Positions 12,068 through 14,917 of a stretch of DNA of 64,000 nt are shown one piece after another; position 1 is the stretch's first letter; each line of letters opens with the position of its first letter. The position numbers were made by a program, and so were the translations under genes. Origin of the DNA: Agromyces agglutinans (GTDB taxonomy: Bacteria > Actinomycetota > Actinomycetes > Actinomycetales > Microbacteriaceae); assembly GCF_009647605.1 (NCBI RefSeq), contig NZ_WJIF01000005.1, positions 124,001-188,000 on the forward strand, read 5' to 3'. The notes beneath the pieces are model-generated. The model saw only the letters and a list, made by a program, of their open reading frames with translations. It ran no database searches and was not told where the DNA came from.

Positions 12068-12961
12068 TCACCCCTCGACGCGGATGCCTCGCAGGGCCCA
12101 CTGCCGCACGCGCACGAAGCGGGTCGCCGCGCACGTCGACCGGAGCGGCGGCGAGGACTCCGCGACGAGGTCGACCACGACGGAAGCGCCGCCGTCGAGC
12201 GCGAGCCGCACGATCCAGCCGTCGTCCGTCGCGATCTCGTCGACCGGCGGATATGCCGCGATCCGCTCGTCGCCGAACTCCCGGCGGGCGTAGTGCTGCG
12301 CGGCCTGCACGGGGTGGGTCAGCGAGCTGCGTCCGCGCAGCAGTTCGGGCACGACGCGCCCGCCCTCGTACGCCTCGGCGATGCGCACGGGATCCCCGTC
12401 GTCGGCATAGCCCGAGTACAGCCCCTCGGGGAGGACCACCATCGTGCCCGCGAACCGGTCGCCGCCGAGGTGGGAGCACTCCCACGTCTGCTCGGGGCGC
12501 GCGGCGGCGAGCGCGGTCGCGACGCGCCGGCCGCGCACGGCGCAGCAGCGGTCGTGCCGGCCGTGGGCGCAGACCGCGTAGACGGGCTCGTCCGAGGGCA
12601 CCCCGGTGGATCCGTCGAGCGGCACCTCGAGCAGGTCGGCGGCGTGCGCGACCTCGCCCCAGACGATGCGCTCAGCGCCCGGGCGCGAGTCGACGATCGC
12701 CCACCGCTGGGCCGGTGGCGCCGTGCGCCGGCCGGTGCGACGGATCGCGAGGATGCGCATCTCGGCCGCCTCGACCCGGCGCACGAGCGCCCGGCCGATC
12801 TCGCGGTCGAACGGTGCGTCGAGCAGCGCGTTCGGGCCCCACGCGGCCGGCACCTCGAGCAGGAACCAGCGCAGGCCGCGCGGCGCGGTGCCGGCGAGCG
12901 GGTCGCCGCGTTCGCGCGCGCCGTCGCTGCACGGCGTCCAGTGCTCGGGAGCGAGGGTCAC
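12068..12961 (-). CDS. Sucrase/ferredoxin-like protein
   Basis: 297 residues of the Suc_Fer-like family, whose C-terminal half is a thioredoxin-fold [2Fe-2S] ferredoxin-like domain. Candidate ligands and motifs are YAVCAHGRHDRCCAVRGRR, then WECSHLGGDRFAGTMVVLPEGLYSGY. The GTG start at 12961 overlaps the stop of the JmjC gene as GTGA, so the two proteins are made together. Given this coupling, an attractive role is electron supply to, or iron maintenance of, the oxygenase; this is inference. The N-terminal part (about 1-150) has no recognised function. Confidence 0.85.
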   Translation of the reverse strand: MTLAPEHWTPCSDGARERGDPLAGTAPRGLRWFLLEVPAAWGPNALLDAPFDREIGRALVRRVEAAEMRILAIRRTGRRTAPPAQRWAIVDSRPGAERIVWGEVAHAADLLEVPLDGSTGVPSDEPVYAVCAHGRHDRCCAVRGRRVATALAAARPEQTWECSHLGGDRFAGTMVVLPEGLYSGYADDGDPVRIAEAYEGGRVVPELLRGRSSLTHPVQAAQHYARREFGDERIAAYPPVDEIATDDGWIVRLALDGGASVVVDLVAESSPPLRSTCAATRFVRVRQWALRGIRVEG

Positions 12962-14232
12962 CCGGATGCCACCGCGAATCCCTCGCGGACCAGTCGGCGC
13001 GCGACGACGAGGGCGCTGTCGGCGTCGAGGCCCGGCAGGTCGCCGACCGCGACGGGCGAGCCTTCGGCGAGCCGGCGCACCGCGGGCTCGGCCTCGATCG
13101 GCAGCGAGAGCGACGTCGTGCGGCCCACGACGCGGACACGGTCGCCGTCGACCTCGATCCGCGATCGCAGCGCCTCGCGCCAGCGGACCGTGCTCGACGC
13201 GTCGAGCGTCGCCAGGGCCTCGAGCGTCGCGAGCGGCGCCAGCGGCTCGGGGCGGATGTCGCCCTCGAACCGCCGCGCGAGCGCGGCCGCGGCGTCCGAG
13301 GCATCCGATCGTTCGAGCAGTTCGGCGAGCGCGTCGACGGTCTCGCGGACGATGCCGGCGAACGCGTCGACGTCGTCGAAGTCGACGCCGAGCGGCAGCG
13401 ACGCGCGCAGCCGATCGCTCTCGCCGACGCGGGCGACGAGCGCCTGCACGACGTCTGCGCGCGTGTAGGCCGACATGCCGATCGTCAGGTGCACCGAGGT
13501 CGCGTCGCCGCCCGCGGTCGCGGAGTGGATCCAGCCGCGCGGCAGGTACAGCGCGTCGCCCGGGCGCAGCACGGCGTCGATCGCGGGCTCGTCGAGCGCC
13601 GCACGCGCGACGGCCTCGCGGTGCTGGCTCCACGGCTGCGACGCGAGCGGGTCGACGTGCACGGGTTCGTGGATGCGCCAGTGCTTCTCGCCCGAGATCT
13701 GCAGCACGAACACGTCGTGCGTGTCGTAGTGCGGGTCGAATCCCTGCGAGCCGGGCGGCGTGACGTACGCGTTCACCTGCACCGGATGCCCCAGCTCGCC
13801 GACGAGCGCGCGTGTGAAGTCGATGATGGGCGGCCAGAGGCGGTGGAGCCCCTGCAGCACGATCGTGGCGCCGTCCGCGAACCGCGCGAGCACGCGGTCG
13901 CTCGCGACCTGGTCGCCCACCTCGGCGCCGAAACCGCCCGAGCCGGTGTACGCGGAGGCCGGCAGCACCGAGCCCTCCTTCGCCATCCGGATGAACGGCG
14001 TTCGCACGCCGCGGCGGGTGACCAGCTCGTCGACCGCGTCGGCCGAGAAGAGGTCGGCGAAGCCGGCGGCGTCCGCCGAATCGCCCGCGCCGTCCGGGCC
14101 GTCGCCGAGTTCGCTCGCCCGCGACAGCAGCGCCTCGCGGCCCCAGTACCGGTCGGCGAACGTCTCCGTCGGCACCGCGATGCATCGCGAAAGCGCGGGC
14201 CGGAGCTCCGACCCGCGCTCACTCGCCGCCAC
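12958..14232 (-). CDS. JmjC/cupin-type 2-oxoglutarate-dependent protein hydroxylase
   Basis: 424 residues related to the ribosomal-oxygenase (YcfD/ROXA, MINA/NO66-like) cupin_4 family. The iron triad is visible: His168-x-Asp170 in GFDPHYDTHDVFVLQISGEKHW and His236 in GDALYLPRGWIHSA. The domain order (JmjC, helical dimerisation region, C-terminal winged-helix-like part) and length fit that family, which hydroxylates Arg, His, Asn or Asp in proteins. The GTG start at 14232 shares a base with the stop of the repeat-peptide gene, and its stop overlaps the ferredoxin-like gene. Substrate is unproven; the upstream Asp/Asn/His-rich peptide is the obvious candidate. Confidence 0.88.
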   Translation of the reverse strand: MAASERGSELRPALSRCIAVPTETFADRYWGREALLSRASELGDGPDGAGDSADAAGFADLFSADAVDELVTRRGVRTPFIRMAKEGSVLPASAYTGSGGFGAEVGDQVASDRVLARFADGATIVLQGLHRLWPPIIDFTRALVGELGHPVQVNAYVTPPGSQGFDPHYDTHDVFVLQISGEKHWRIHEPVHVDPLASQPWSQHREAVARAALDEPAIDAVLRPGDALYLPRGWIHSATAGGDATSVHLTIGMSAYTRADVVQALVARVGESDRLRASLPLGVDFDDVDAFAGIVRETVDALAELLERSDASDAAAALARRFEGDIRPEPLAPLATLEALATLDASSTVRWREALRSRIEVDGDRVRVVGRTTSLSLPIEAEPAVRRLAEGSPVAVGDLPGLDADSALVVARRLVREGFAVASG

Positions 14233-14489
14233 TACGCCGATCCGTCGGCGCCGCCGTCGTGGCCCTCCGGGTTCGCGCCGCCGTCGGCGGTGCCTTCGCC
14301 GCCGGCCGCCGATCCGTCGGCCCCGCCGTCGTGCCCACCCGGGTTCGCGCCGCCGTCGGCCGTGCCCTCGCCCGCGGCCGCCGAACCGTCGGCCCCGCCG
14401 TCGTGACCCGACGGGTTCGCCCCGCCGTCGGCCACGCCCTCGCCGCCGTCGCCCGGCTCGTTCGTGATGTCGTCGTCACCGATGGACAT
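14232..14489 (-). CDS. Asp/Asn/His/Gly repeat peptide, candidate substrate of the JmjC enzyme
   Basis: An 85-residue peptide starting MSIGDDDITNEP, then three near-identical copies of a 24-residue unit reading DGGANPxGHDGGADGSA plus a short Gly/Glu/Ala linker. At the DNA level this is a 72-bp tandem repeat with many synonymous or conservative differences, which argues for selection on the protein. There are no Cys, aromatic or hydrophobic residues, so it cannot fold as a normal globule. AAGGGGGA precedes the ATG. Each unit offers Asp, Asn and His residues that JmjC enzymes can hydroxylate. A metal-binding role is conceivable. I do not recognise a characterised homologue. Confidence 0.8.
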   Translation of the reverse strand: MSIGDDDITNEPGDGGEGVADGGANPSGHDGGADGSAAAGEGTADGGANPGGHDGGADGSAAGGEGTADGGANPEGHDGGADGSA

Positions 14490-14534
14490 GCGATTCCCCC
14501 TTCGCCATCGCCGCGACCCGGCGTCGCGGCACGT

Positions 14535-14548
14535 CTGGCGCCAGCGTA
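14535..14548 (-). promoter_or_regulatory. Promoter and palindrome before the repeat-peptide gene
   Basis: Reading leftward, a -10-like TACGCT (14548-14543) lies about 54 bases before the ATG and partly overlaps a perfect 10-bp palindrome CTGGCGCCAG (14535-14544). This would place an operator over the -10/start-site region. No good -35 is visible. It indicates that the cassette has its own promoter separate from the ArsR gene upstream. Confidence 0.4.
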
Positions 14549-14599
14549 GCCACCGGGCGGCTCGCGGGCCACGGGTTGACAGTGAACGTCGGGCGACGG

Positions 14600-14917
14600 C
14601 TAGAGGCCCTCCGCGATCTCCTTGATCGCGGCGAGCCGGCGGTCCCACTCGGCGCCGATCGCGTCGAGGCGGCGCGCAGTGGCGCTGAGCTCGGACCCGA
14701 TCACCCGGTACCGCACCTCGCGGCCGACCCGGATCGGCTCGACGACGCCGACCTCGGCGAGCACGGCGAGGTGCTTCGCGATGGCCTGGCGGGTGACGGG
14801 CAGGCGCCCGGCGAGGGCCGACGCCGACGCGTCGCCCTCGCCGAGCGCGGCCAGGATGCTCCACCTGGTCTCGTCCCCGAGTGCCGCGAACACCGGGACC
14901 AGCGCCTGCATCGTCAT
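14600..14917 (-). CDS. ArsR-family winged-helix regulator
   Basis: 105 residues: VFAALGDETRWSILAALGEGDASASALAGRLPVTRQAIAKHLAVLAEVGVV is the whole ArsR DNA-binding fold. The metal-binding ELCVC motif of ArsR/SmtB sensors is absent, so this is the non-metal branch usually paired with SRPBCC proteins. The ATG at 14917 overlaps the SRPBCC stop as ATGA. It probably regulates its own operon, including the SRPBCC gene and maybe the MFS pump upstream. Confidence 0.9.
   Translation of the reverse strand: MTMQALVPVFAALGDETRWSILAALGEGDASASALAGRLPVTRQAIAKHLAVLAEVGVVEPIRVGREVRYRVIGSELSATARRLDAIGAEWDRRLAAIKEIAEGL

Follow-up and report, generated by a model that had tools for sequence, protein, structure and literature searches.

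The substrate contacts and selectivity of the JmjC ribosomal oxygenases (ROX) NO66 and MINA53 have been described (available text of PMC9994133), and proteins in which a PF08007 JmjC domain is fused to a recognition element (RRE) of ribosomally synthesized and post-translationally modified peptides (RiPPs) have been noted in fish and algae, their closest bacterial homologues, about 30% identical, lying in RiPP-like contexts (Bregman et al., 2025; available text of PMC12710340). Here we describe a three-gene locus of Agromyces agglutinans that encodes a small Asp-rich repeat peptide, a JmjC oxygenase of the NO66/MINA53 type and a sucrase/ferredoxin-like (Suc_Fer) protein. The locus lies on the minus strand of the window, by which we mean the whole stretch of DNA analysed (64,000 nucleotides; NCBI RefSeq assembly GCF_009647605.1, contig NZ_WJIF01000005.1, positions 124,001 to 188,000). 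We find that the three genes keep this order and occur together tightly in many actinobacteria, and on balance we favor the interpretation that they form a RiPP-like peptide-modification cassette, in which a leader docks on the enzyme, Asp residues are hydroxylated and the Suc_Fer protein acts as redox partner.

Results

The gene for the repeat peptide (14489-14232, minus strand) has an ATG start with AGGGGGA directly 5′ of it, and encodes 85 residues. These comprise a leader (MSIGDDDITNEPGDGGEG) and three Asp-rich repeats of 24 residues, which together (14232..14489, minus strand) make a precursor-like peptide. The last base of its TAG stop also belongs to the GTG that opens the JmjC gene (12958..14232, minus strand, 424 residues), whose TGA stop (12960-12958) overlaps as GTGA with the GTG start (12961) of the Suc_Fer gene (12068..12961, minus strand, 297 residues). 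A first-pass annotation, made from the letters of the sequence, had described three touching or overlapping genes, and this is the layout that we confirm.

Altogether 109 JmjC loci were collected, the window included, from named and unnamed sets that may overlap in species. Scanning genome contigs, we obtained 38 JmjC relatives; they belong to Subtercola, Leifsonia, Curtobacterium, Amnibacterium, Gordonia, Geodermatophilus, Blastococcus and a single Mycobacterium, together with three bins that have names only at higher rank. JmjC matches were present in 59 of the 396 genomes of a phylum sample and 29 of the 249 of a family sample (genomes G000 and G004 are common to both). As 6 of 25 genomes of the window's own genus carry a match, its own genome included, the cassette is patchy.

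A similar peptide ORF (open reading frame) is found just upstream of the JmjC gene at 90 of the 109 loci in our curated set. This set consists of 69 loci that pass a strict rule (leader motif, at least 60% D/G/A/S/T/N, at least 12% Asp and an end near the JmjC start; composed after the first example peptides had been seen), 17 that pass a looser script rule and 4 without the leader motif that were entered by hand. The strict rule found 0 ORFs elsewhere in 614,249 same-strand bases. A relaxed rule gave 94 loci and 3 matches elsewhere; of the 94, L058 and L115 are not counted as family, and contig starts truncate the copies at L030 and L037. Among the loci with at least 33% identity over the best segment, 89 of 96 belong to the curated set, and of the remaining seven the peptide is cut or masked in three (L014, in a masked stretch, L030 and L037) and the upstream end is unreadable in another three (L085, L110 and L116). 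Where that end can be read, the peptide is present at 92 of 93 loci of this identity, L058 being the true exception; below 33% identity it is present at 1 of 13 (L097). The first-pass annotation had proposed the repeat peptide as a dedicated substrate of the oxygenase and had named, as the finding that would count against this, a consistent absence of the repeat ORF beside homologous JmjC genes. What we see instead is co-occurrence, and we consider it very likely that the repeat peptide is the substrate of the JmjC oxygenase. The exceptional L058, a JmjC relative that falls within a clade of leader-less members, has an acidic, non-repetitive and leaderless ORF upstream and no Suc_Fer match.

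The C-terminal signature DGGADG[S/T]A-stop, which represents one core style only, occurs in 8 of the 396 phylum genomes and 24 of the 249 family genomes, always with a JmjC match no more than about 190 bases away; the reversed control pattern gave no match among the rows listed for the two samples. Two genomes of the family sample, G444 and G485, have strong JmjC matches and lack the signature. In a JmjC tree made by FastTree, with the root chosen on L115, the peptide-bearing members fall in one weakly supported 94-tip group (0.54), together with L058, L085, L112 and L116.

The peptide ORF is under coding selection. Differences lie mostly at third codon positions in 9 of 10 pairs of relatives, the tenth being uncountable for unequal length (23 of 29 differences between the window and L002, and 16 of 16 between L025 and L027, are at third positions), so the ORF behaves as coding sequence. 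Given this bias and the conservation across many genera, we reject a chance or non-coding repeat. Neither Pfam nor NCBIfam has a family that matches the peptide. The three units of its core (ADGGANPxGHDGGADGSA with linkers; residues 20-85 plus the stop, 14232..14432, minus strand) begin at residues 20, 44 and 68, in agreement with the length and the 24-residue period first reported; the added claim that the peptide is free of hydrophobic residues holds inside the repeats, and fails for Met1, Ile3, Ile8 and Val19, which lie outside them. At the N-terminus is the acidic leader motif MSIGDDDITN (14460..14489, minus strand; family consensus L/I-x-D-D/E-D-I/M-x-T). A script found D/E-D/E-D/E-I/M, usually with L or I two residues before, in 84 of the 90 peptides, and two that it missed, L064 and L088, have the Gln variants SEQDI and TDQDI ahead of the start that it chose. 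The cassette thus has a short precursor ORF with a conserved leader and a variable core, adjoining the gene for the enzyme, as is expected of RRE-dependent RiPPs.

Three styles of core can be told apart, roughly tracking the JmjC tree, with the first two labels partly mixed: HDGGADG units (the window, Leifsonia, Gordonia and others), (DGGA)n (Geodermatophilus) and TDADG/DGDA units (more distant relatives). The first two, with L058, form a 55-tip group with a support of 0.99. The number of units differs among species, a close relative (L003) having only two, after a longer non-repeat stretch. In the peptide of Geodermatophilus ruber (L043) the charged stretch LIDKVRDKVRDVIGGDKG breaks the (DGGA)n array, and a very different core is found in L096 (genome G150), with PTEDDENLDAPGEHSQDTGDE twice after the leader ITDNDITS and no Suc_Fer match at the locus.

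The JmjC protein matches PF08007 (JmjC_2; E 2.5e-30, 105.1 bits, cut-off 22) and no family of NCBIfam. Among solved structures, NO66 and MINA53 are closest to it in sequence, and YcfD follows. An AlphaFold2 model built from 59 sequences (mean predicted local distance difference test score, pLDDT, 93.2) gives it a predicted NO66-type fold, for which Foldseek against the PDB returned NO66 (E 3.1e-27), MINA53 and YcfD; the matches to NO66/MINA53 are full-length, so that the predicted structure has the JmjC, helical and winged-helix architecture. FIH, which the first-pass annotation had cited as an example, is not borne out as the closest relative; in both the sequence and the structure comparison NO66/MINA53 are nearer. 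The proposal of a JmjC/cupin enzyme with an intact iron triad is upheld: His168, Asp170 and His236 (iron-ligand region, 13525..13731, minus strand) do not vary among the 59 sequences aligned, the window included. The same three residues and Lys183, which we take to be the Lys that binds 2-oxoglutarate (2OG), are invariant in 90 peptide-linked sequences (87 of the 90 curated loci plus L014, L030 and L037; window included) and in 10 relatives without peptide.

The substrate pocket has changed. The residues with which NO66 reportedly touches its substrate, Arg297, Tyr328 and Ser421 (available text of PMC6006756), align with Val125, Tyr156 and Gly252, so that one of the three is kept in our reading of the alignment. 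Val125 is conserved in 89 and Gly252 in all 90 of the peptide-linked sequences; since each is also found in 7 of the 10 relatives without peptide, the change does not set peptide-linked members apart. The pocket is thus of the ROX type and remodelled, in a way that is consistent with another side chain.

The C-terminal residues 344-424 (12961..13203, minus strand), modelled separately with a mean pLDDT of 95.5, are predicted to form three to four strands and then helices, a winged-helix domain that may also be RRE-like. Foldseek placed the winged helix of NO66/MINA53 first (best E 8.6e-4; template-modelling score against NO66 0.81 by query length), followed by RRE-containing proteins, namely ThcOx (E 0.016), TruD, TbiB1 with leader, McbB and PbtF (its RRE; E 0.34). 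Four arginines of this domain are frequent in the peptide-linked sequences, namely Arg352 (87 of 90), Arg412 (82), Arg413 (87) and Arg416 (69, with Thr in 14), and each is present in 1 of 10 alignable relatives without peptide. The four leader-less members each have at least one change among residues 412, 413 and 416, and all are without Glu417; because all four form one clade, this counts as at most one event.

The third protein had been called ferredoxin-like, which is borne out by a match to PF06999 above the cut-off (E 6.2e-13, 49.7 bits, cut-off 34.9), and we predict a [2Fe-2S] protein of thioredoxin fold; no NCBIfam family matches it. The actinobacterial search that had been suggested, for JmjC genes with an adjacent repeat ORF and a Suc_Fer gene, found Suc_Fer downstream on the same strand at 87 of the 109 JmjC loci and at 82 of the 90 that bear the peptide, and at 0 of 12 relatives without peptide (L091, L095, L098, L099, L105, L108, L111-L115 and L117; 0.8-1.6 kb downstream covered), which supports its proposed place in the same system. 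Those relatives named ahead of L117, all without peptide or Suc_Fer, have an identity of 28-32%, and several of them occur in one genome (G387 has four JmjC matches). All 87 Suc_Fer proteins aligned share Cys11, Cys131, Cys139 and Cys140. The motif HxGGH, which from the Apd1/Aim32 literature we assume to be the cluster-ligand motif of PF06999, is absent; all 87 aligned proteins have HxGG[D/C]R, with Asp in 76, Cys in 11 and His in none. Asp or Cys at the place of the second His hints at an unusual coordination of the [2Fe-2S] cluster.

The region 14490..14602 (minus strand) is intergenic, and it is here that the cassette presumably has its promoter and its ribosome site. By ORF reading alone, a putative ArsR-type regulator and an SRPBCC-type gene lie upstream of the cassette, and downstream are the ATPase and permease of a putative ATP-binding cassette transporter as well as a two-component pair. 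At the 38 named loci, where we considered ORFs of at least 110 residues, the sole families common to different groups are JmjC (at 38 of 38) and Suc_Fer (at 37 of 38). The other recurring ORFs look antisense or clade-specific, and a wider gene cluster was rejected, as no further neighbor recurs across groups.

A metal-starvation operon was rejected as well. In a crude scan of the 300 bases upstream of the 90 peptides, matches to the IdeR and Fur consensus were no better than in one shuffle each, and a lone Zur-like site, at L029, is not convincing, since it has 4 mismatches of 15 where the best shuffle had 5. Nor do we see a phage or defence system: for all three proteins there was no PADLOC match at E 0.01, and PHROGs gave matches to the JmjC protein alone, in four families of unknown function. 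A plasmid-borne origin was dismissed since the plasmid matches in a tblastn search with the JmjC protein (152 records) all have less than 60% identity among the matches listed, one of which covers 80% of the query.

Discussion

We propose that modification would proceed in three steps. The acidic leader would first dock on the RRE-like C-terminal domain, to which, judging from conservation and fold, the arginines would be complementary. The repeat tail, presumably disordered and now tethered, could then be fed repeatedly into the Fe(II)/2OG site, where Asp in small-residue contexts (D-G, D-A, D-S) may be hydroxylated at Cβ several times per peptide. Finally, and here our proposal is weaker, the [2Fe-2S] cluster of the Suc_Fer protein might hold the iron reduced, or the protein might otherwise act as redox partner. 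Such a pathway would yield a polypeptide that carries many β-hydroxyaspartates. The chief clues to this mechanism, the leader motif and the RRE-like C-terminal domain, were absent from the first-pass annotation.

The choice of Asp as the modified residue, which we regard as somewhat more probable than not, comes from the composition of the cores. In the 90 script-cut cores, Asp and Gly are present in 90, Thr in 88, Ser in 86, Pro in 84, His in 60, Asn in 46, Arg in 27, Lys in 12 and Cys in 0. The first-pass annotation had put forward Asn and His beside Asp as candidate targets. Because Asp is found in every core and 25 of the 90 have neither His nor Asn, Asp is the likelier target, and modification of Asn or His is not supported as a general rule.

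Several observations weigh against the cassette as we read it. With regard to the docking step, the C-terminal domain has weak RRE-like matches (E 0.016 to 0.4), all placed below the ROX winged helix, which to our knowledge is not known as a leader binder, and a Pfam scan of the domain found no RRE domain. The correlation of the arginines with the peptide is confounded by phylogeny, the relatives without peptide being at most 32% identical. Some members with a leader have changed arginines, residue 416 being Thr in 14, mainly from Geodermatophilus, and residue 412 being changed in L063, L084, L088, L097, L100 and L101; conversely, four members with a peptide (L007, L055, L056 and L057) are without the leader motif, L055 reading NDDDT. 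The Suc_Fer gene is missing from 8 of the 90 peptide-bearing loci (L010, L048, L050, L069, L070, L072, which is at a contig end, L089 and L096), and wider stretches around L048 and L050 (L119 and L122) still gave no Suc_Fer match. No conserved protease or exporter was found among ORFs of at least 110 residues at the 38 named loci. A protease or exporter is not strictly required of RiPPs.

As for the residue, the most direct challenge is that the enzyme could be a histidine hydroxylase like NO66 and MINA53, which are the nearest solved structures and hydroxylate His, with Tyr156 in the place of NO66 Tyr328. Its target would be the His of each GHDGG unit, giving three sites per peptide in the window's clade, and each repeat of the window peptide does contain His, as do two thirds of the cores (60 of 90). 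We think this unlikely, given the 25 cores without His and Asn and, from our alignment, the replacement of NO66 Arg297 and Ser421, to which a role at the substrate is assigned (PMC6006756, available text), by Val125 and Gly252.

The presence of Gly, Thr and Ser in nearly all cores also leaves room for other target residues, and the peptide could be the substrate of a different 2OG chemistry: hydroxylation of Gly at Cα with cleavage of the backbone, desaturation, or further oxidation of hydroxy-Asp. Gly is as universal in the cores as Asp, and Asp-Gly is the most frequent Asp step (783 counted). There is precedent for further oxidation in the SmaO/SmaX enzymes of a graspetide cluster, where Asp is β-hydroxylated and then converted to aminomalonic acid (available text of PMC13097080). 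On the other hand, the ROX relatives hydroxylate the side chain at C-3, the β carbon (available text of PMC9994133), and the 38 named loci show no other recurring oxygenase gene next to the cassette, so we give this alternative a small probability. Smaller still is the chance that the peptide is an unmodified acidic partner, binding metal or protein and regulating or stabilising an oxygenase whose target is another protein, ribosomal or not, as its polyanionic repeats, the ROX fold and the lack of a protease or exporter nearby might suggest; against it stand the tandem repeats, the leader/core layout and the core sequences, which vary widely yet keep Asp in a small-residue context, as would be expected of a flexible substrate.

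If Asp hydroxylation of the repeat peptide is correct, the cassette could open a genetic route to hydroxyaspartate-rich polypeptides. The three small genes make a compact and expressible system for testing how a JmjC enzyme hydroxylates a protein iteratively, its likely substrate being the product of the adjoining gene. More speculatively, and with considerable doubt, we suggest a widespread class of actinobacterial ribosomal peptides whose tandem-repeat tail would be travelled by an oxygenase of the NO66 type that has its own domain for leader recognition and an iron-sulfur redox partner; conversion of the aspartates to β-hydroxyaspartates would give a genetically encoded poly-hydroxyaspartate chelator of iron, calcium or another metal. 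The C-terminal domain would, if it binds the leader, link the human ribosomal oxygenases NO66 and MINA53 to enzymes of peptide natural products, and might suggest a common origin of the ROX winged helix and RREs as substrate-docking domains.

The window enzyme has in common with NO66 (RIOX1), MINA53 (RIOX2) and bacterial YcfD the JmjC_2 domain, the predicted full-length fold with its C-terminal winged helix, the HxD...H iron site and the Lys of GxK. Unlike these it is encoded beside a small repeat peptide and a Suc_Fer protein. We take the PesHI enzymes of the nitrilobacillin pathway, which enter the comparison below, to be an MNIO pair. The pocket of the window enzyme differs from that of NO66 in having Val125 and Gly252 for Arg297 and Ser421, with Tyr328 kept (PMC6006756, available text). 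Bregman et al. (2025) deal with fish and algal proteins, and for the bacterial ones the available text of PMC12710340 describes neither a precursor sequence with a leader motif or a repeat core nor a Suc_Fer partner.

Hydroxylation of Asp at Cβ on a ribosomal precursor, as proposed here, is known from the graspetide enzymes SmaO/SmaX (PMC13097080) and from PesHI (PMC13060819); in the available text of these papers neither system has an Asp-repeat core, and for PesHI a single Asp (Asp21) is reported and neither JmjC nor PF08007 is mentioned. The large graspetide corallotide resembles the present system in combining a repeat core, of five repeated motifs, with a 2OG oxygenase, but that enzyme belongs to PF13640, works with a graspetide synthetase and hydroxylates Lys, in a group described as restricted to Corallococcus (available text of PMC13097080). 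Among the top-ranked open-access literature, a scope that leaves most subscription papers outside, we found no description of the cassette or of the repeat peptide. Because RRE-JmjC proteins have been noted before (available text of PMC12710340), we do not call the cassette categorically new; in its combination of a repeat precursor, a NO66-type oxygenase and a Suc_Fer protein it is probably a new RiPP-like pathway.

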